Shown piece after piece: positions 35,629 through 49,156 of a stretch of 64,000 nucleotides of DNA (position 1 is its first letter; each line of letters opens with the position of its first letter). Source of the stretch: Candidatus Altimarinota bacterium (GTDB lineage Bacteria; Patescibacteriota; Gracilibacteria; BD1-5; UBA2023); NCBI GenBank assembly GCA_028714815.1, contig JAQTLR010000002.1:1-64000 (forward strand), read 5' to 3'. The position numbers and the translations under genes are program-made. A model generated the notes under the pieces. It saw only the letters and a program-made list of their open reading frames with translations, searched no databases and was not told the DNA's origin.

Positions 35629-35695
35629 TAAATTTGATTTCAAAAAATCTCAAGATATACTTTCCCGGATTTTTATCACATTATTTCGCTCTGCT

Positions 35696-37495
35696 ATGGG
35701 TTCTTTTAAAAACATCACAAAAAAATCTCATGCTTTCACTCTCATAGAACTCATCGTTGTCATTACCATCCTCACTATACTCTCAACCATAGGGTTTGTT
35801 TCTTTGACCGGATATTTTGCAGGAACCAGAGATAGTGTCCGTTTAACGGATATGAATAACATCTATGGACAATTAAATCTCTCGCTCTGAATGGATGGAG
35901 CCCTTCCATTACCTGATGGATACAGAACCATTACTCTTTCCGGTACCACCATCGCCTATCAAGGGTATGCTGGAAAAACCGTATTGGATGCTATCAAGTT
36001 CGAAAAGGGATGACGCGATCCGAAAGACGATGTCTATTATACCTATATCATAGACAGAAAAAGAAGACAAGCTCAACTCATGGGATACTTCGAAGAATAT
36101 GATACAAGCAAGATGTCCCTCATATCCCCTCTTATGAACAAAGCCTTTGCAGCAAACCCTACGAATTATTCGGATAGGAAGATAGGAGTTCTGGGGAAGA
36201 AGATAGGAGTACTTGTAGAATCGGGAACTCTTGTTCCGGTTCAGGATACGAGTAGCGGAATTCTGGATGTAGCCACAACCTCCACCGGATATATGGCATA
36301 TTTCGACAATACCACTATAGGGAATGGAACAGGAAGTGTATTACAGAGCGCCTTTCTGAATAATAGTGTGGTGTATACGACGGGAAGTACAAGTACCGCT
36401 CTTGTGATTACAAATGGTTCTTGTGGAACTGCAAATATAAAATACCGAGTAAATGCGCCATCAGGAGCAGAACTTTGCTCAGCAGGAACTCCAACGATAG
36501 TATCATGATCTTGACCTTGGACTTGGACTTGTCAGCAACAGAATGGATGAATTGATTCATCGACCTGTACAACCAATAAACTCTGAGTTCCTACCACAGG
36601 AACTGGTGTTTCTGGGACCGCCAGTATCACCTGGGGCTGGACCAATCCTACCGGTGTAACGAATATAAAGTGGTCGCCGGATGGAACAGCTTGGACTAGC
36701 AAAGGTACTAATACGAGCCATCTTGAAGCATGGCTTGGTTTTGCTACCTATTCAAATCGAGTCGTACAAGCTTGCGATGATATCAATAACTGTACCACTA
36801 GCCTTACGCTTCCCTCTGCTACTCCTACACAAGATACTAATCTGATTGGATACTGGGATATGGATACAATGTCTGGATCAGTATTAAAGGATATGAGTGG
36901 CCATGGAAATAGTGGTATATTAAGTGGCACAACTTCTCCTATCTTGGGGGCATGAAAAGTTTGAGGAGGCCGTAATTTTTCTGGAAGTTGAAGCAAAATA
37001 GTTATAAATAATACCACTATTTACCCAACTTATAGTTTTGTCGCATGGATTAAGCCAGGTTCCGTAACAGCAGGTTATAACATGTATCTGATAGACAAGG
37101 TTAGTTATTTTGCAACCTCAACTACAGATTTCCCCTATGGTATAGGTATATCTGCATCAGGAACAATAGCAACAAGCTCGATGAGTATTTGAAATGATTA
37201 TTCTAATGATTGCTCAGCATCAGGTTCATTTACTAATAACACATGGCATTTTATTGCGACAACATATGATGGGAGTAATTTAAATATGTATATTGATGGG
37301 GCAATGAGCCAAAGTTCCAGTTTCGCATGAACCCCCTCAAATAACACTCAACCTTACACAATAGGAATGGCGAGCCAAGAATATGGATGATGAATATGAC
37401 AATCTTCTTTTTCATGATCCATCGATGAAGTCCGTATCTATAACCGTGCTCTCTCCGGTCCAGAGATCCAGTCATTGTATGATGCGACGAAATAA
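35696..37495 (+). CDS. Pilin-headed surface protein with LamG-like domain, 15 TGA-Gly
   Basis: 599 residues ending at TAA with about 15 TGA-glycine codons. The N-terminus is a type IV prepilin (KKSHAFTLIELIVVITILTI; cleavage after Ala/before Phe). A pilin body follows with YQGYAGKTVLDAIKFEKG and DDVYYTYIIDRKRRQAQLMGYFE, shared with the gene at 46754. After a Thr/Trp-rich linker (about 270-330) comes a concanavalin/LamG-like jelly roll: LIGYWDMDTMSGSVLKDMSGHGNSG, SFVAWIKPG, HFIATTYDGSNLNMYIDG and ending SIDEVRIYNRALSGPEIQSLYD. LamG domains bind glycans or proteins, so this is probably a tip adhesin or minor pilin. The standard code reveals only the pilin half. Confidence 0.85.
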
Positions 37496-37534: not shown

Positions 37535-38545
37535 ATGTACTTCAATTCCTTCGATTCCATCCACATTGTTCCCGCTTTCCTCTTCCTTCTGGTGACTCTC
37601 GGAGTGGTATTTTTCCGCTACCGAAAATACCTATTCCCGAGAGAAAAAACCATCAACTATACCATCAATGGAAAAAATGCCATTATCCGGATCGTGAGTC
37701 TTGTCCTTTCTCTTGTCGTCCTCAGTGCCGCTCTTCTGGAACCGACGGGACTTGTGGAAGATCCATCCGCTCGCGCTCAGGGGATCGACTGTGTCTGGCT
37801 TTTGGATGTCTCGCTCAGCATGGATGTACCGGATATCGCTGAGAATGATTCCTTTATTTCTCGGCTTGCCAAAGCAAAATCCGTGATAGAAAACTATATG
37901 ATCACCCATCCCGAAAATCGGTATGGACTCGTGATTTTCGCAGGAAAATCACGACTCGTTTCCCCGCTCACCTCTGAACACTCTTCCCTACTCACTTTCC
38001 TCGCGAGCATAGATTCCAAGAGCATTGCGGAAGGCGGAACCGATTTCCATGATGCACTGGAACTTGCGATAGAGCGCTTCGATACAAAAGATACGATCCC
38101 CCATGCGATAGTCCTTCTGAGCGACGGTGGTGACAGAGAAGATGCTCCGGATACGGACTCTATCAAGAATCTTTTCCACAGAAAAGATACCCGTCTCATA
38201 TCCGTCGGGTTCGGTCAGACCAAGCCATCCCCCATCCCTGTAGGACAGGATTCTCTTTGAGAAGTAGCCTATAAGAAATTTCAGGGAGAAACAGTGCTTT
38301 CCGGTCTGAATAGAGAAAGTCTCGAAAGACTTGCCGATATAGGGAAGTGATCCTATATCGAATGGAATTCGGTCGGGAAAGGTCTGGAAAAATCCCTCAG
38401 CACCGTTTCCCATCATGCTTTTCAGGATTCATGAGGCAACTCCAACGATATGACAGTACCGGTCTTTATCATGATCAGCTGTTTCTTTTTCCTCATCTTC
38501 CTCTTACTTCCTTCTTCCTTTCTGAAACGATGAAACGCTTTGTAA
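37535..38545 (+). CDS. BatA-like von Willebrand factor A domain membrane protein
   Basis: 336 residues with TGA-glycine at 38258, 38348, 38432 and 38531. Two N-terminal TM segments (about 8-26, 50-70), a vWA domain with the MIDAS motif D-x-S-x-S in LLDVSLSMDVPD, a conserved Thr in GGTDFHDAL and LLSDGGDRED, and a C-terminal TM (VFIMISCFFFLIFLLL). BatA/BatB-like proteins sit in the membrane and bind partners through a metal ion. The last TGA is followed by three codons and TAA. It overlaps the next gene by 16 bases and leads the surface operon. Confidence 0.88.
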
Positions 38546-39390
38546 TCTTTCTCTTCGTCCTCATCGCATTTGTCGGAATCTATAATCTGTCTATGCTTCA
38601 TGATTCCATATCCTGATTTTTTGGCGACGATTCCTATCGGAAAAACGATTTTTTGAATGCCCGGAAGCATTATTCCGGTACTCTCGACGCATACTCCGGA
38701 AGCATTCTTCTGAAAGCCGATATACTCTATAACCTCGGGAATACTCTTTATCGGCTCGGGGAAAAAGAAACCGGTACGAAGAGAATGGAGTTCTGGAAAG
38801 AATCCGTCGGTAGTTATATACAATCGCTCTCTTTCCGTATCGATAAAGAAACCGAGGAGAATCTCGCTTTCGTAAAAGAAAAACTTCAGGAGGAGCAAGA
38901 AAAAGATAAAAAGAAAGACGAGAAGCAGGAAACCGATTCCGGATCCAACCAAAAACCGGATCAAAATGAGAGTAAAGATCCCCAAAACAATACATGAACC
39001 GGATCAAAAAAAGATCCGGGAGATAGTTCGCAAGAAAAAGAAAAACCGCAGACAGGAAACGAACCTGCCGAGAAGGAGACAAACACATGAACTGGAAACA
39101 CCGGAAATGTGCTGCAACCATGAAAAAGCTGGTCCAATGGCGGATCCTATAATCCGGTAGGATGACAAAGCAAAGACGATGTCCATTCATCACTGTCCGA
39201 TACCGATCGGCAGGAGATATGAAAGTATCTCGAGGATCTGAAACGATTCGAAAAACAGAATGGAAAACTCCTGAATCCGGAAAAATGAGGAGAAGCAGGA
39301 AGCATCTCTGATCAAATACGCAATTTCTTTGGAAACGACTCCTTTTTCCAGGATGTCCTGCCGAGCGATGATGGGAAAAAAGATTGGTAA
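38530..39390 (+). CDS. BatC-like TPR protein, seven TGA-Gly
   Basis: 286 residues ending at TAA; TGA-glycine at 38614, 38995, 39088, 39121, 39163, 39220 and 39286. The N-terminal TM (RFVIFLFVLIAFVGIYN) is followed by TPR-like helices (ADILYNLGNTLYRLGEKE, then ETEENLAFVKEKLQEEQEK) and a long, charged, low-complexity region rich in Lys, Glu, Gln and Gly. This order is that of BatC proteins, which are encoded next to vWA genes in Bat operons. Its ATG overlaps the last codons of the vWA gene, so the two are translationally coupled. Confidence 0.75.
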
Positions 39391-39462
39391 AAGACTTTTT
39401 TCTTGTATTTATCCAAGAAATCATTATATTTTCAAGTATCTACTCTATTTATTTTTTTTCTT

Positions 39463-40644
39463 ATGAAGTCATCACGATATCTGAGCGCTCTCGCACTCTT
39501 TATTTCCTGCATATCTTTTGCTCACGCAAATCTTTCCATATCGCCGCTCAAGTACGAACTGACCGTCGGGGCCGGAAAGGAAACATCGGAAATCATCAAG
39601 GTCACCAATAACTCCGATATACCCATTACCCTCTATACCTCGAAGGAAGATTTCATTGCCGGAGACGATACCGGAACACCGACTTTCGTGAAACCGCAAA
39701 ACCAGATTTCGGATGAATACAGTCTCTCTAATTGGATAAATATCGAGAATGCCAATGTTACTCTTGCTAAGGGAGAAACCCGTGAGGTACGTTTCACGGT
39801 AAAGGTTCCTCAGAAAGGAGAGCCAGGCGGACACTACGGAGCCATATTCTTCTCTCCAGGGGCACCAAGTGGAGCGCAAGTCGCTGTCGTGCAGCGACTC
39901 GGGGTCCTTATCCTGATCAATGTTCCCGGAGATATCCAGATTGCCGGAAGCGTAGAGAGTTTCGATATCGGAAAAAAACTGGAGAACGCTTTCACTCCTG
40001 CTAGCGATTTCAACGCCTTTCCTATAGTATTTGAAACCAAATTCAAGAATGAAGGGAATACACACCTGAAACCGACCGGACGTATCGAGCTCATCGACGA
40101 GAATGGAGAAACCTTGAAGAATATCGGAAAAGAGGCCATCACCAGTCCTGCCGGAGCATTTATAGGAGAGAAGATGGTCGACTATATTCCGGTCAATGAC
40201 GGACTCGGGAATGTTCTCCCGAAATCGGAGCGCCGTTTTGAATCCGCCTGGGAAGGATTCGGATATCAAGAACTTCAGGCAGATGGAACCAAAGTGGTGA
40301 AATTCAAAGACCTCACAGCCTATTATGCCGATAAAGCAGCTGAGAAAAGGGCATTTCTCCAATTTTGGGAATCCATCCACACGCGAACCGTCGATAAAAC
40401 CGTTTCTGCAAATCTCATTCTTTCCTATGAAGGGAAAGACAAAGAGAAGAAAGAATTCCGTGACTCGAAAAAAATCACCGTCCGATACCAAGAACAATAT
40501 GTCGGCATCAATTACTTCGTCATCATCATGATTCTCGGGATTGTTGCTGCGCTTGGATACTATGTGCTTATCGCTGTTCCTGCCTCAAAAGAACGACTGA
40601 GGAAAGAACTCATGGAAGCTGTAGGTAGACACAAAAAAGAATAG
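39463..40644 (+). CDS. DUF916-like cell-surface protein
   Basis: 393 residues with no TGA, ending at TAG. Signal peptide (MKSSRYLSALALFISCISFAHA), then an N-terminal Ig-like domain NLSISPLKYELTVGAGKETS... with VTNNSDIPITLY, typical of DUF916 and pilus-chaperone-like folds, a second beta domain, and a C-terminal TM (about 360-382, YFVIIMILGIVAALGYYVLI) with a basic tail. Such proteins stay anchored in the membrane and hold partner surface proteins. I use the ATG at 39463; the frame is open 20 codons upstream. Member of the surface operon. Confidence 0.85.
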   Translation: MKSSRYLSALALFISCISFAHANLSISPLKYELTVGAGKETSEIIKVTNNSDIPITLYTSKEDFIAGDDTGTPTFVKPQNQISDEYSLSNWINIENANVTLAKGETREVRFTVKVPQKGEPGGHYGAIFFSPGAPSGAQVAVVQRLGVLILINVPGDIQIAGSVESFDIGKKLENAFTPASDFNAFPIVFETKFKNEGNTHLKPTGRIELIDENGETLKNIGKEAITSPAGAFIGEKMVDYIPVNDGLGNVLPKSERRFESAWEGFGYQELQADGTKVVKFKDLTAYYADKAAEKRAFLQFWESIHTRTVDKTVSANLILSYEGKDKEKKEFRDSKKITVRYQEQYVGINYFVIIMILGIVAALGYYVLIAVPASKERLRKELMEAVGRHKKE

Positions 40645-40664
40645 ATTCATCTTCATCCCCATTT

Positions 40665-41099
40665 ATGAAAAAATTCTTTACTACTCTCATTGTTAGTTGA
40701 ATAGGAATCATCTCCTCCTTATTTTTCGTATTTGCGAACCAATCCGTAGGGGTAAGCGCTATCGTGGGCTCCTTCAATCATCCTCCAGTCATCACTACCC
40801 TGAGCCCATCAAGCGACCCGAAACTCCTTGGACAGAATAAGATTCAGAATTATACGCTCTACTTTCGTGATGACGAAAAAGATACGGTTTCCTATACCAT
40901 CACCCCTGTGAGCGGATATGTCAATCCTGTGAGTGGGACCGTCAATCCATCAGATTATGATTCCATGAGCGGAGCTTATGTGAATTTTACCTATCTCTCT
41001 CCCTCTGTAATCCCATCGCCCGATCCGACGACTGTGACAGTCACCCTCAACGATGGCCCGAATCTGGTAAATAAGGATATCCATCTCTATATCTACTAG
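40665..41099 (+). CDS. Secreted Ig-like/beta-sandwich protein, one TGA-Gly
   Basis: 144 residues ending at TAG. TGA-glycine at 40698-40700 lies inside the hydrophobic signal segment (MKKFFTTLIVSGIGIISSLFFVFA), so the standard reading would miss the start. The mature part is a beta domain with NHPPVITTLSPSSDPKLL, DEKDTVSYTITPVSG and TVTVTLNDGPN, like cadherin or Ig-like extracellular modules. It lies 20 bases after the DUF916-like gene and 5 before the next gene. Likely a structural part of the same surface assembly. Confidence 0.75.
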
Positions 41100-41104
41100 G
41101 ATCT

Positions 41105-42115
41105 ATGAAATACCGCTATCGAATCCTCCTTCTCATCTCTGTCCTCATATCCTGAGGACTTTTCCTTTTCTTTTACCAGATCCACGATTTCGATTCCGAT
41201 TCCCGATCCGAGACGAAATTTTTTATGAGAAACCTTACATGGCAAACGGATTTCGGTACCAATGTCCCCTATAATAAGGGGAACGATGTCGAATATTCCT
41301 GGGTATTTTCCTGAGATTCACCAAGAAACGTGGCTATCGATATATCCTCTCTCAAGAATTTTCTCGATATCGAACATATCAGACTGGATGATATCGAGAT
41401 ACAGGAAAAAGATCTTACGGATATCCATGTGACCGGTACCTCTCTTCTGAAAATCACCGGAAAAGCGAAAAATACGAGCAATGCTGATGCTATCGTTCAG
41501 CCGAAAATCACGACCATTCCCCAAGAAGCGATAAAAAATCAGGAACCGAAAGAGCAGGAACCCCTGAAAAATCTTCAGATCGAGCCGACCGGTATGAGCA
41601 TGGATACGACAAAGTACAATTCCAATATCAATAATCTGATTACTGTTCATGGGAAAAACCTCGACAGTATCGAGTTTGTGAATATCGGAGAAAAAAGGAT
41701 CCGACCGGTGTATTCGAATGGAACACTCTTCATTCAAGCGGATCATGATACCTTTGCCAGCGGCGAATATTTCGTGTTTTTCACCCTCAAAAACGGGAAA
41801 ATGCTCACCTCCGATTATCATCTCCTATTCGAACACTCCAATTCTGCCATCAATATCGCCAATATCACACCGCGTATGATACACAACGATGAAGACCGGT
41901 TCGTCGTCATACAAGGGAACGGGTTCGATAAGATCGTATCCATCCAGCTCAGCAATAATCTCATCCTTAAGAATGCGGAATTCCAGATCATAAACAAGCA
42001 AGTTGCCGGAGTGAAGATCCCGAAAGATCTTCCTCCCTGAGAATATTACTTCAATATCATGGACACGAATGCTATTTATGAGCTTAAAAACATCCGATTC
42101 TCTATCACTAACTAA
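41105..42115 (+). CDS. Membrane-anchored protein with IPT/TIG-like domains
   Basis: 336 residues with TGA-glycine at 41153, 41312 and 42038. An N-terminal TM (RILLLISVLISGGLFLFFY; the first TGA is inside it) is followed by a charged region and two IPT/TIG-like beta domains, recognised by ITVHGKNLDSIEFVNIG and FVVIQGNGFDKIVSIQL with the closing LPPGEYYFNI. Such domains are common in bacterial adhesins. It begins 5 bases after the previous stop and ends 7 bases before the next start. Role: probably part of the same extracellular complex. Confidence 0.75.
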
Positions 42116-42122
42116 CCCGCGT

Positions 42123-44375
42123 ATGTCCGAAAAAAAAATCCTCTGTTCGTTCGTCGTCTCCTTGTCCATCGTCAGCCTGGTTCCAGTTTCCTCTGCAGCG
42201 AATCCAGTGGATTTCAATGCTAAAATCGCAACTGCCGGCAACGAGACCTATACCACCGATTTGAAAAATGTAAGCTATTTCAATAACGATGTGACTTTCC
42301 AATTCGTAGAGATTTCTGGTGGCGGAACAGAGGAATATTCCCTCAGCCTGCCGACCGGATTCACATACCAATCATACAACACCGCTGGAAATACCTGCGC
42401 AAATTTCTCTCTTCTCAATGCCAGTAATGGAAATTATCGCTTTTCTCTCAATGGATCGGCCGGTTGTCTCGCAAAAACGGAATTCACCTATCGGGTGACC
42501 CCTACGGCCATTCCATGAAATACGAGCCTATCTCTCCTTTCAAAAAGCGGTTCTGATTGGAGTATTGCAGCCGTTCTCTCCATGGGTATCACTTCCAGCA
42601 ATTCCATCACGAAAGCCGCTACCGCGGATTTGAATGCAAATGGATACATCGATGCCTATATACTCTCATTTGCAACCACTGCAGGTGTGAACGCCAGTAC
42701 GCTTTCTTGAATAACCGTCGCTTGAGTGACAGTATCCGCAGCGACAGCGAGCGGTTCCGAATGGATCATCCCCTTCACGGACAATATCCTTGGAACCGGA
42801 TATACCCCACAGATCGGCGGGACATTCGATGGTATCGTACTCACAAATACCTCAGTCAATGAGACGGATGGGGCCCGTCCTCGTGTCATGACCATAGCAG
42901 GAAGCACGACAAATACAGGAAGCATCACCATCGGCACCGGAGCACTGATCATGTCTCTCTCGGAACCACTGTCTCCGAGCTCTGCCGGAAGTTTCTCGCT
43001 CAAGCTCGGAATAGGAACGATTGCCGGAACCATGACCCTGACCGGGAATCTGAATACGCTTATTTTTACTCCGACCTCTCCTCTTATAGCAGGAACATAC
43101 ACCTTTACGAATACTACCGGTGCAACCGATTGGCCAGCCGGATCCAATGCTGTCTCACAGATTTTTCCGAATCTTCTGGTCACAGACATCACTCCTCCAA
43201 CAAATGGAAGCATCCTTATCAACAATGGGGCAACCACTACTACAAGCCAAACAGTTTCCCTCACCCTTGGAGCATCCGATAATATCGGTGTGGCAACGAT
43301 GATGGTATCCGATTCTCCTGCATTTATCGGAGCTGCCTGGGAACCCTACGCGACCGCCAAGGTAAATTGGAGTCTCGCTTCCAGTGCTCTTGGGGTACAA
43401 ACCGTCTATGTCAGATTCCGGGATCTTGCGCTCAATATAAGTCCGAGTTACTCGGATGATATCACTATCGTAGCTCCGCCTCCTTCGGGAGGAGGAGGAG
43501 GAGGATGATGAGGAGGGGGTGGTGGATGAGGAGGGGGTGGTTGAAGCCTATCTCCCGACAATTGTCCTTCAGGCGATTTTTCCGGAAACCTCTATGACAC
43601 TATTTGTGGAACACCGACGTCCGGAACAGGTATGACGAACACCGGGACCGTTACTGCCACAGGAACCGTTCCTATGCCGATCGCACCATGGATTCCAGTA
43701 TGATTTACATCCCCTTCCGATCTTTCTTCCGGGACGCTCGATGCAAAGTATTTTCCCACGCTCGCAGAGGCTCGTAAATATCTCCTTTCACGAATCTCGC
43801 ACCCCTCTATCGTAAAGCTTATCAACTCTTACGGAGATAAACTTGCTATCGCGGACGATTCATATTTCCTCTCTGTAGATAAGGATCTCTATATCGGATA
43901 CAACCGCATCATCAACGCCTACGTACTCTTATTTCTACGCGTACAGGATGCGGTTTCCGGGAATCGATCCGAAAGTGTGAGAAGCGATGGGCGAGCAAGT
44001 GTCGGTATCGTTATGTCCGGTGTCGCTCTTGCCAAGAATTTTCTCGATAGATATGTGATACGGGATTATATCCCTGAAAAGAATATCACTCTCTACCGTA
44101 CAAAGAATCCTCTTCTCGTAAAGCCGATTGCCGCCCTTGAGAGGAAAGTCATTGCCAAGTTCGATGCTCTTTTGAAAAACGGAAATATTTCCAGGGACGA
44201 GTATGAATCATCCGTGCAAGCCTACGATGATTTCATACTCCATCTCATGATCTACCGGGATTATGGGAAAAGCGCACTCTCTAAGGATCGGGCGCTTGCT
44301 GCTATCAAAATATTCACCGCAACATATGCGAAAAATATTACCGTCCACTCCGAACCGGTCATCGATGGGAGATAA
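42123..44375 (+). CDS. Large surface protein with 19-residue polyglycine linker
   Basis: 750 residues with eight TGA-glycine codons (42516, 42708, 42723, 43506, 43509, 43527, 43542, 43701). Signal peptide (about 1-25, ending SSAANP), a beta-rich N-terminal half (about 30-440, Thr/Ser/Gly-rich, Ig-like repeats such as SPLIAGTYTFTNTTGATD and DNIGVATMMVSD), then PPPS and 19 consecutive glycines (43488-43544, four of them TGA), a Thr-Gly linker and a helical C-terminal domain (about 545-750) with KPIAALERKVIAKFDALLKNGNISRDEYE. The helical end resembles modules in 21679, 30394 and 30979. Last gene of the surface operon; converges with 44382. Confidence 0.8.
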
Positions 44376-44381
44376 AAAGAA

Positions 44382-44570
44382 CTAAAAAACATCTCCGAGC
44401 AAGTCGTTCATCTCGCGGCTTGCTTTTTCCTGTTCCTTTTTCTCCTGTTCCAATGCCTCTTTCGAGAGTGCTTCTGCACGGGCATAGTCCTCCTGCATAC
44501 GACGCAACTGGGCTTTTGTAACCGGTTTCGCACGACCGGACGAGGATGGGGTATAATCTCAGGCTCACAT
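44382..44570 (-). CDS. Small coiled-coil protein starting ATG-TGA
   Basis: 62 residues ending at TAG; codons 2 and 4 are TGA (MGAGDYTPSSSGRAKP...). The body is a charged helix (KAQLRRMQEDYARAEALSKEALEQEKKEQEKASREM) likely to form a coiled coil, ending NDLLGDVF. It lies 22 bases downstream of the sugar transferase gene and is missed under the standard code. No function is known. Confidence 0.6.
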
Positions 44571-44592: not shown

Positions 44593-46014
44593 TTATCTTC
44601 CTTTTCGTGCCAGCACCACCCCTACAGTCTTGAAAAGGATCTTCATATCCAAAAGGAGGGTCCAATTCTCGATATAGAAGGTATCGAGCCGTACCTCGTC
44701 ATCGAATGTATTCTCGTGCCGTCCGTGGGACTGGGCCATTCCAGTGATGCCGGGCTTCAGAGTGAGGACTCGTTTCTGATGTTCTTTGTAGAGTCTCACC
44801 TCATCTTTCAGATGCGGCCGTGGACCGATGAGGCTCATGTTCCCGATAAGGACGTTATAGAGCTGTGGAAGCTCATCGATATCGAATTTCCGGATCCATT
44901 TCCCGAGAGCGGTGATTCTCGGATCATTCTCTATCTTGAAGAGCGGTCCGTCTTTCCTTTCGTTTTTCGAGAGGAGTTTCCGCTTCTCTTTTTCCGCGTC
45001 CATGATCATGGAGCGGAACTTATACATATCGAACAATATGCCGTTTTTTCCGACCCGCTGGCTCTTATAGAAAGGATTATGTCTATCTTGCGAATAGATA
45101 AGGAAAGCGACTATAAGAAAAACAGGAGAGAGCACGACGAGAGCGAAAAAAGAGAATACGATATCGAACATCCGCTTCCAGACACGTCCCCATGGGGTAA
45201 GACCGATATTTTGTATCTCGATCACCGGAATCTTTCCAAGGAAAGATATCTCCGTATTGATCTTGGTTGTCTCGAAAGAATTCGCGATATAGCGGTACCG
45301 TACACCATAGATACGGGCATATTCGAATATCTCCTGGATTTCCTCTCTGGTGAAATCGCTCTGCACGACGAGGATCTCATCGATCGAATGAGATTGTATG
45401 GCAGCTATCACTTCTCCTATTCATCAAACATAGGGGATACGCAGATCCGGTATCTCTTTCCTGTGCGCATATCAGCACATATCATACATCGCGGAATCCT
45501 GTATGGTTTCAATGATATCTTCATCGTTTTTTCCTAATACGAGGAGAATCTTCGTCTTTTCCAATACCCCCTTCCGCATGAGAACCGTTTCAGCTTTATC
45601 CAATATACCACGCTCCAGTATGACCAAAAATGTGGCGATCAGAACCGAAAAAAGGACAATCAAACGCGGAATCTGTTCTGTATAGAGAAACCCGAAAGAA
45701 AGGTATAGGATAGCGATGTAGACGAAGAACCAATAGAACGAAACAAGCAGGATATCCCAGAATTCCTGGATGCGCGATTGATATATCCGCATCTTATAGA
45801 GCCCGGAAAATGCTGAGATCATGATATATACAAGGGAGCCGACGAGAGCGAATCCAAGAAGATTATGTGTATCAATGGTCTGGATAGGCAGATGGATATC
45901 CGGGATAAGGTCAGTGACCCGACGGAGGTCGCGAGCCAGGAAGAATGCCAGGAAGACGATAGACGCCTCGATCGGGACCTTGATCATTCAGAAAAAAAGT
46001 TCGTGGCGTTTCAT
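44593..46014 (-). CDS. Undecaprenyl-phosphate sugar phosphotransferase (WcaJ-like)
   Basis: 473 residues from the ATG at 46012-46014; TGA-glycine at 45988, 45472, 45424 and 45421 (two in a row). Four N-terminal TM segments, a CoA-binding-like central domain (ILLVLGKNDEDIIETIQ, DEILVVQSDF), a fifth membrane helix (DIVFSFFALVVLSPVFLIVAFLI) and the bacterial sugar transferase domain with KSQRVGKNGILFDMYKFRSM, GKWIRKFDIDELPQLYNV and GPRPHLKDEV. It starts surface glycan synthesis by loading a sugar-1-phosphate onto the lipid carrier. A flippase gene at 57121 could export the product. Confidence 0.92.
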
Positions 46015-46753: not shown

Positions 46754-49156
46754 ATGAAAACAAAAAATACCAATCATTGCAAAGAAGTGAAAACATCCGT
46801 ATCAGAAAAAACCTCTTTTTCAAGAAAGCTCTCCGCATTCACTCTCGTCGAACTCATCGTCGTCATTTCCATCCTTACTATCCTCGCAACCATCAGTCTT
46901 ATTTCCATCCAAAACTTCTATGGAAATGCCCGAGATAGTGCCAGGATATCTGATATAAAATCTATCCAGAAATGACTTTCCATTTTTTATGTAAAATCAG
47001 GAGTTTATCCGCTTCCGGACAACTCCATAGAAATAGATGCAGGGGGTACGATACTCTCCTATCAAGGGTATGCCGGAGACAGTGTTTCCCGAATCGCGAG
47101 CACCAACAAAATCCCTCTCGATCCCAAAGATACAGTACGGTATATCTACACCGTAGATAGTGTAAAGAAAAAAGCGCAATTGATGGGATATCTAGAATCC
47201 GGAGATACTATAAAAACTACCGCATACAATGACATATTTTCTCGCCTTGTAAATCAGTCCTATGCTGCCTCAAGCGGCATAGACTACAGGAATCGATTCA
47301 TCTATGTGACCGGAGACAAGATCGGAGTACTGACCGATGGGAACAGTGCGCCTATTCAAGAATCCGTTGATGGGACGGGTATCAATCTCAGTTCGACTGA
47401 TACCACGGGATATGTGGCGTATTTCTGATGAGATACCTACGGAGCCGGACAGAGCACCGGTACCGGGGAGATTCTCATTACTCAAATAGTCTGAGCTCTT
47501 ACTAATACGATCCCGTGTAATCCTCTGACCTATAGCGGATATGCTATTACCGCGCTTTCTCACAACGAAACGAAAACCTTTGCCAAACCGCTCACGGTTG
47601 CGAACGGAACCGGAACCGGTTCCCTCCAGATACAGTGTCTGAATGGAACGCTCGATACCCTTCATGCGATAGAGACATCGAATATCAGCTGTAATGCCAG
47701 TTTCGTCAATCAGGCGAATATCTGTGTGGCGGATGTCTGCGGAGGAACTACACCATCTTTGTCATCGCATACGCATTCGACCGCGACCAGTCAGACTATC
47801 AGCCAGAACTGGACCCGGAGCGCTGGAGCGGGAATCTGTACTTTCGACTGCGATACGAACTATACGTGGAGCGGTGGGACGAGTTCGTGTATGGCGAATA
47901 GCCAATCCATGAGCTGCATAGGACTGCCATCGAACGGTGTCTGGAATACCGTTTCTTCCATTATCCAAACATGGAACGGATCCAGTTGGATTCCAAGCAC
48001 TACCGGTATATACAACACGTCCGCTTCCACGACAAATTGTAACTATACCTGTAATGCCGGCTTCCATACGGAAAATGCAGGAGTGAGCTGCGTTTCCAGT
48101 ACGCAAAACTGTGCCATTACAAATGGAGTCGGAAGCCAGACGTGGAATACCGGAACGAGTGCTTGGAATAGTTGTACGGTCGTGAGTTGTAATACGGGAT
48201 TTACCGTAAGTGGGAATAGTTGCATCACCAGCACCTACACTGTCAGCGGAGGATTTGGAGCCAATGCCAACGGGGCCACCATCTCTGTCTGCGGATCAAA
48301 TGTCACTGCGAATGCAAGCGGAAATTTCTCAACGACTAGAAATTATGGATCTGTCTGCAACAACATCACGGCAAGCAGGACTGGATACACCTGTAGCACG
48401 AGCACCAATGGACCTGCAAGCCTAGTTGGGAATTTCACAACGGTTGCAGGGAATTGTGTTTCAGCATTTCCATTAGCGTTGAGCACCGGGGGAACTATCA
48501 CTACTTCAGGGAATTATCGAATCCATACTTTCCTTACCTCAGGAACCTTTACCCCGAGTGGTGCCGGAACAGTGGAATATTTAGTAGTTGCAGGAGGGGG
48601 CGGATGCCAATGAGCTTCCTTCGTTATAGGCTATGTTCCTGCTGGCGGCGGAGCTGGTGGTTTGCTAGCAGGTAGTTTGAATGTGATAGCAAATCCCTTA
48701 ATAATAACTGTTGGTAATGGAGGAATTAGTGGTTGAAATTCCTCAATAGCTGCGCAGGTCATAGCTTACGGTGGTGGTGCATGAGCTTATTATTCTAATG
48801 GTTCTCACGCTGCTACATCAGGTGGTAGTGGAGGTGGTGGTACTGGAACCAATGCAACTGGAACCAATATTGGAGCTGCTGGAACCGCCGGACAGGGAAA
48901 TGTGGGTGGAACGGGATTGGGGGCATGGGGTGGTGCCTCCGGTGGTGGTGGTGGAGCTGGTGGAGCTGGTGGTGTTAGTAATGGAGGAATTGGGGTAATG
49001 TCTTCTATATCGGGCATAAACACATCCTATGCTCAGGGTGGTGCTGGCTCAAGTAATACAAATGGTACATCAAATACCGGCAACGGTGGTGGTGGAAGTT
49101 GGACATCTACTGTAGGTGGCTCCGGTATCGTCATTATCCGTTACCTGTACCAATAA
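46754..49156 (+). CDS. Giant pilin-headed protein with glycine-rich domain, seven TGA-Gly
   Basis: 800 residues ending at TAA; TGA-glycine at 46973, 47426, 47429, 47492, 48611, 48734 and 48782. Type IV prepilin N-terminus (LSAFTLVELIVVISILTILA), then a pilin body like that of 35696 (LSYQGYAGDSVSRIA, DTVRYIYTVDSVKKKAQLMGYLE, GDKIGVLTDGNSAPIQE). A Cys/Asn/Thr-rich region (about 310-540) contains repeated C-x2-G-x-(W)NT modules. The C-terminal 230 residues start TSGTFTPSGAGTVEYLVVAGGGG and run into a glycine-rich domain ending SGIVIIRYLYQ, a pattern known from adhesin and tail-fibre glycine-rich domains. Probably a surface adhesin or pilus tip. Own promoter and terminator. Confidence 0.85.

Follow-up and report, generated by a model that had tools for sequence, protein, structure and literature searches.

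The WxL clusters of Lactobacillales and Bacillales follow a logic in which a small and a large protein share one C-terminal domain and are accompanied by a WxLIP, and AlphaFold2 (AF2) predicts that a hairpin strand of the WxLIP completes the sandwich of the WxL domain (PMC10599100). The other described systems closest to the locus reported here are the Pam pili of the ultra-small bacteria of the Candidate Phyla Radiation (CPR), chaperone-usher pili, the TasA/TapA fibres of Bacillus and, for its first two genes, the Bat (aerotolerance) locus. The locus is a run of six genes in a 64,000-nucleotide stretch of DNA from a member of Candidatus Gracilibacteria (assembly GCA_028714815.1, contig JAQTLR010000002.1, positions 1 to 64,000; hereafter, the window). 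It consists of two modules, i.e., a BatB-TPR pair and a D916-Ig-TIG-Big block. We consider that the Bat pair probably lies beside the relocated accessory half (D916-Ig-TIG-Big) of a CPR surface-fibre or adhesin system, in which the DUF916-like protein D916 would act as a strand-donating chaperone or anchor. The six genes are:

37535-38545, + strand: gene 1, vWA membrane protein, BatB-like, 336 amino acids (PF13519, NF047506; Bat pair)
38530-39390, + strand: gene 2, TPR protein, BatC-like, 286 amino acids (NF047507; Bat pair)
39463-40644, + strand: gene 3, D916, WxLIP/DUF916-like, 393 amino acids (PF06030, hhalign, AF2 model)
40665-41099, + strand: gene 4, Ig, small secreted immunoglobulin (Ig)-like protein, 144 amino acids (conserved with type-A D916)
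41105-42115, + strand: gene 5, TIG, N-terminally anchored protein with a possible IPT/TIG-like C-terminal half, 336 amino acids (weak TIG match)
42123-44375, + strand: gene 6, Big, secreted protein with Ig-like repeats, a Gly-rich linker and a helical C-terminal domain, 750 amino acids

The source genome (G000; 1.2 Mb in 23 contigs) reads TGA as glycine (genetic code 25). Under table 25 all six open reading frames (ORFs) are open at these coordinates, with 23 in-frame TGA codons read through across them; the standard code breaks five of the six. Because the whole proteins are conserved in relatives, these are not chance ORFs. The run is as compact as a first-pass annotation, made from the sequence alone, had described it, with spacings from gene 1 to gene 6 of -16, 72, 20, 5 and 7 nt, and that annotation was also right in reading it as an unusual mix of surface proteins.

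Presence and absence were counted over 59 genomes of relatives. The surroundings of D916 were examined in 40 genome regions and in 52 loci that an independent scan of named genomes had supplied, and counts of locus architecture are based on 48 D916 loci. D916-Ig-TIG(-Big) was contiguous in 10 of these 48, and Bat genes lay beside D916 in one, i.e., that of the sister species G005. The vWA and TPR genes thus adjoin the four-gene block only in the source genome and in G005. Two other members of the genus, G001 and G006, have the order sugar transferase, small ORF, TPR, BatB, uninterrupted by the block, and in G006 the stops of the TPR gene and the small ORF are a few nucleotides apart; it is exactly this gap that the block occupies in G000 and G005. 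The genes on the far side of the block in the window are:

44382-44570, - strand: small convergent ORF, 62 amino acids, at the far border of the block (conserved in G001, G005 and G006)
44593-46014, - strand: polyprenyl glycosylphosphotransferase (EPS_sugtrans; TIGR03025, 2e-108; same order in G001 and G006)

In species other than G000 and G005 the block is at another site or missing; in G002 and G006, and likewise in other genera of both families, it is located behind the gene for a giant protein and a gene termed c1, which encodes about 220 amino acids. The widest gap of the run, 72 nt, falls at the border between the two modules. The most economical history is one in which D916-Ig-TIG-Big moved into the junction between the TPR gene and the small ORF in the lineage of G000 and G005, a direction that we infer. 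Terminal repeats at the borders of the block amounted to chance-length matches only (7 nt), and no mobile-element signature was seen there.

The first-pass annotation had taken all six genes for a single complex. That claim fails, the Bat genes adjoining the block only in G000 and G005, and BatB being present in 56 of the 59 relatives whether or not they have D916. By the refuting test that it had set itself, i.e., lack of linkage in relatives, genes 1-2 are unlinked from genes 3-6, whereas genes 3-6 stay linked among themselves. A single six-gene unit was rejected on the grounds of the block-less sites in G001 and G006 and the wide distribution of the Bat genes. Such a composite locus cautions against inferring function from one compact gene run.

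Genes 1 and 2 are an ordinary Bat pair, i.e., common membrane housekeeping genes, separate from the surface block. Gene 1 carries a vWA domain (PF13519, E = 3e-16) and is nearest to the BatB model (NF047506, 5.7e-25, compared with 5.2e-19 for BatA, both below the model cut-offs), whereas gene 2 gave a weak TPR/BatC match (NF047507, 0.0017); of the earlier labels, BatC-like was retained for gene 2 and BatA-like gave way to BatB-like for gene 1. Across the 59 genomes, D916 and BatB were not associated (Fisher p = 0.43). BatB and TPR genes are adjacent in several relatives, G005 included. The source genome has BatB, TPR, DUF58-like and BatA genes, and genes 1-2 match the BatB and TPR/BatC-like part of the known locus DUF58-BatA-BatB-BatC. 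The difference from that locus is that the set is split in the source genus, DUF58-BatA lying across a contig break (end of G000 contig 2, start of contig 10) far from BatB-TPR; several other genera keep BatA-BatB-TPR together. No match to MoxR (PF07726) was found in the G000 and G001 assemblies, possibly an assembly gap; 57 of the 59 relatives have one.

D916 matched PF06030 (WxLIP_PGBD, formerly DUF916) above the cut-off (E = 1e-9), and its architecture is a signal sequence, two Ig-type domains and a C-terminal transmembrane (TM) helix, in agreement with the DUF916-like anchor proposed earlier. Against a profile of seven Firmicute WxLIPs, hhalign gave E = 3e-14 over the first domain. DUF3324 gave no Pfam match in D916, and no NCBIfam model matched the protein. 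In the AF2 model (mean predicted confidence, pLDDT, 86.6) the fold comprises residues 22-340 and the C-terminal helix residues 351-392. The best structural match was to the Enterococcus faecium WxLIP 9i25_C (Z 14.9 over 231 residues, root-mean-square deviation 5.2), and the WxLIP 9i1y also matched (Z 14.1). PapD-type chaperones gave Z values of 13.2 (CfaA), 13.1 (CsuC) and 11.4 (PapD), a likeness of fold and not proof of homology or of function. D916 occurs in 49 of the 59 relatives; across the phylum, 380 genomes were sampled and 166 of them have the family. A second type, of about 460-560 amino acids (loci L040, L048 and L069), is distinguished by a long low-complexity stretch inserted between the two domains, and in some of these proteins the TM helix is followed by a cytoplasmic zinc-ribbon-like tail (CPYCGxK). 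Two or three tandem or paired D916 genes stand beside giants in L156 (labelled Actinomycetota), L146 and L149.

The partners of D916 in the source genome are encoded elsewhere, c1 behind atpC (contig C3, 133022-133636) and the giant, of 2,573 amino acids, on contig C1 (about 71,925-79,640). The c1 gene, encoding a secreted protein, immediately preceded D916 in 31 of the 43 loci with sufficient upstream DNA; it was also upstream of D916 in loci labelled Uhrbacteria, and near D916 in Komeilibacteria. Its C-terminal domain is shared with the upstream giants (hhalign E = 6e-6), and the C-termini of both show alternating hydrophobic residues, a tyrosine at -13 and a terminal aromatic residue (F 24/24, Y 13/14). 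Within the genus, D916, c1 and the giant domain are all present in G000, G002, G005 and G006 and all absent from G001, G003 and G004 (7/7). Over the 59 genomes, the counts for both, first only, second only and neither were 46/3/1/9 for D916 and c1 (p = 2e-7) and 44/3/1/11 for c1 and the giant domain (p = 1e-8), both uncorrected for phylogeny. Because the three co-occur on both scales, with BatB unassociated, the giant, c1 and D916 most likely make up the functional unit, and Ig-TIG-Big a cassette of one D916 type.

The domain of c1 was modelled with pLDDT mostly above 90. Its structural matches were weak, i.e., the CfaE pilin domain (Z 8.2), PapG (7.5), CsuA/B (7.5), TLP-1a (7.4) and CanA (6.9), the majority of them subunits of donor-strand polymers; in a Foldseek search, the TasA fibre was the second match (E = 7e-3, also weak). 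The N-terminal extension is better conserved than the core (0.76 compared with 0.63), yet it is of low confidence and unstructured in the monomer model, as would be expected of a donor strand. Pam pilin C (NCBIfam) was matched by 19 of 24 c1 relatives (best 4e-7) and by the source-genome c1 across the whole domain (1e-4). Partial PamT-like matches (1e-11) adjoin homologues of D916 in other CPR loci, and PamT gave no match within the window block. No solved structure convincingly matched c1 or WxL by sequence, and 9i25, in which a WxLIP is bound to a long WxL protein, was absent among the matches listed for the c1 model, which does not exclude it.

We propose the following mechanism. The Ig-type domain at the C-terminus of c1 and of the giant would be incomplete on secretion, and D916 would be anchored by its C-terminal helix at the outer face of the membrane. 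Its two Ig domains would hold the C-terminal domain of c1 or the giant and complete it with a strand, as is predicted for WxLIP with WxL and as PapD-type chaperones do for pilins. The D916 strand may then be exchanged for the N-terminal strand of another subunit, or kept as an anchor. The product would be a wall-anchored fibre, or a coat of giant adhesins, for contact with other cells, and Ig, TIG and Big might contribute to its anchoring in peptidoglycan. Strand donation by D916 to the C-terminal domains of c1 and the giant is proposed because D916 resembles both WxLIP and PapD, because the N-terminus of c1 is donor-strand-like, and because AF2 predicts it for the WxLIP-WxL pair (PMC10599100). 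That the partner of c1 is a PapD/WxLIP-type protein stands independently of the weak Z values of c1. Polymerisation of c1 into a fibre would be a further, likewise putative, step. An attachment role, which the first-pass annotation had raised, is plausible; it would fit the proposal that Gracilibacteria live in dependence on a host (PMC11452946) and a predatory CPR relative that has giant surface proteins (PMC8080830). A part in predation is conceivable.

Several results weigh against this proposal. The co-occurrence counts carry no phylogenetic correction, and Z values of about 8 and below, such as those of c1, can, according to the tool, reflect a common arrangement. Where scores were seen, the Pam matches reached 22-37 bits, compared with a curated cut-off of 55 bits. 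The C-termini of c1 and the giant did not match the profiles of 11 WxL proteins, and neither a WxL Pfam match nor a W-x-L in the conserved columns of these C-termini was found; on the profile-profile comparison, the identity of c1 as a WxL protein was rejected. Pfam and NCBIfam gave no usable family for Ig, TIG and Big, and the Big of the window is without the wall-binding C-terminus of its sister species and also without an internal stretch.

The absence of WxL proteins also bears on the alternative that fares best, a static anchor of the WxL type, in which the C-terminal domain of the giant (and of c1) is retained at the peptidoglycan by D916 in a 1:1 pairing, with no fibre. D916 does align best to a WxLIP (Z 14.9), and a small and a large protein with one C-terminal domain beside a WxLIP is the logic of the WxL cluster (PMC10599100). 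However, c1 has neither WxL motifs nor a WxL profile match, its structural neighbours are mainly polymerising pilins, and its conserved N-terminal extension would be left unexplained; we regard a purely static anchor as rather unlikely, though a serious competitor to strand donation followed by assembly.

The remaining genes of the block are best read, from sequence, as a putative lineage-specific anchoring cassette of one D916 type. In 10 loci Ig is conserved with D916 on one side and TIG on the other, and TIG was present in exactly the 16 of 59 genomes that have type-A D916, the type of the window (16/0/0/43). The IPT/TIG-like match claimed for gene 5 was found, but below threshold (0.018); genes 4 and 6 gave no Pfam match. 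Relatives of Big carry at the C-terminus either SLH domains or, in the case of G005, G006 and two more, PG_binding_1; both would suit an S-layer-like wall lattice, i.e., a cell-wall sheath formed by Big and partners and served by D916 and c1. Such a lattice is improbable, given that the Big of the window lacks wall domains and that near-complete relatives such as G001 do without the block, which would not be expected of an essential envelope layer. Least probable of all is a real six-gene unit confined to the genus, with Bat proteins assisting assembly or stability of the surface block: the genes are co-directional and tightly spaced in G000 and G005, so that co-transcription is possible, but the linkage is limited to two sister genomes, the Bat pair is present regardless of the block, and the module border coincides with the largest gap (72 nt).

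In its linker, Big has about 20 consecutive glycines, and TGA encodes several of them (window 43490-43550). Type IV pilin-like large proteins flank the locus on both sides, one with N_methyl and LamG-like domains (window 35672-37492) and one with N_methyl and Gly-rich domains (46754-49153); comparable large pilins occur elsewhere in the source genome (C2, about 212,270-214,840) and in relatives. Promoter and terminator scans of the locus gave signals no higher than in shuffles.

The means by which CPR bacteria attach to other cells are a central question in their study, most of their surface genes being unnamed. The link of D916 to WxLIP and to pilus-type chaperones offers a testable assembly mechanism for a widespread but little-studied adhesion system of these ultra-small bacteria, one that seems to be constructed along the lines of bacterial pili. 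Compared with the TasA/TapA fibres of Bacillus, the likeness would lie in a monoderm donor-strand fibre with a chaperone-like partner, whereas the structural match is weak and D916 is a two-Ig membrane protein, TapA having a single V-set Ig domain. Compared with chaperone-usher pili (PapD/FimC/CsuC/CfaA), the D916 model folds like the chaperones, the c1 model resembles the pilins, and the C-terminal strand has the same alternating hydrophobic residues and terminal aromatic; D916 is, however, membrane anchored, and c1 has no detectable sequence homology to pilins of that class. No outer-membrane usher was recognised in the loci read, no search aimed at ushers having been made.

Such a pilus system has already been named in CPR, since the NCBIfam Pam models match c1 (NF058581, Pam pilin C, end to end) and PamT-like (NF058579) and Pam-pilin-like genes adjoin D916 homologues in other CPR lineages. 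The differences, judged by the models, are that scores fall below the cut-off and that D916, Ig, TIG and Big have no NCBIfam match; our literature search found no paper joining DUF916 or Pam pili with CPR. With the WxL cluster, whose WxLIP has the order DUF916-DUF3324-TM, the locus shares a homologous first domain, a predicted architecture and fold of two Ig domains plus TM helix, and adjacent small and large partners with one C-terminal domain. It is not a WxL cluster, because the WxL partner proteins are missing: the partner domain has neither the dual WxL motif nor detectable WxL homology. Furthermore, D916 has no DUF3324 Pfam match and no NQIDKxxxYFDLK motif, there is an extra Ig-TIG-Big cassette, and the host is a member of Gracilibacteria rather than Firmicutes. 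We put forward only tentatively the broader notion that Gracilibacteria, and by homology many CPR lineages, assemble wall-anchored fibres and giant adhesins by means of one membrane-anchored two-Ig chaperone, which supplies a strand to a small pilin and likewise to the C-terminal domain of a giant. This would be a monoderm, usher-free counterpart of chaperone-usher assembly, related in evolution to WxL/WxLIP of Firmicutes, whose Ig-TIG-Big cassette here would be previously undescribed. The window holds a variant from Gracilibacteria, in which a WxLIP-like component matched by no NCBIfam model is joined by an Ig-TIG-Big cassette of no known family, and its D916 ties an adhesion cluster of Firmicute gut commensals to CPR epibionts.

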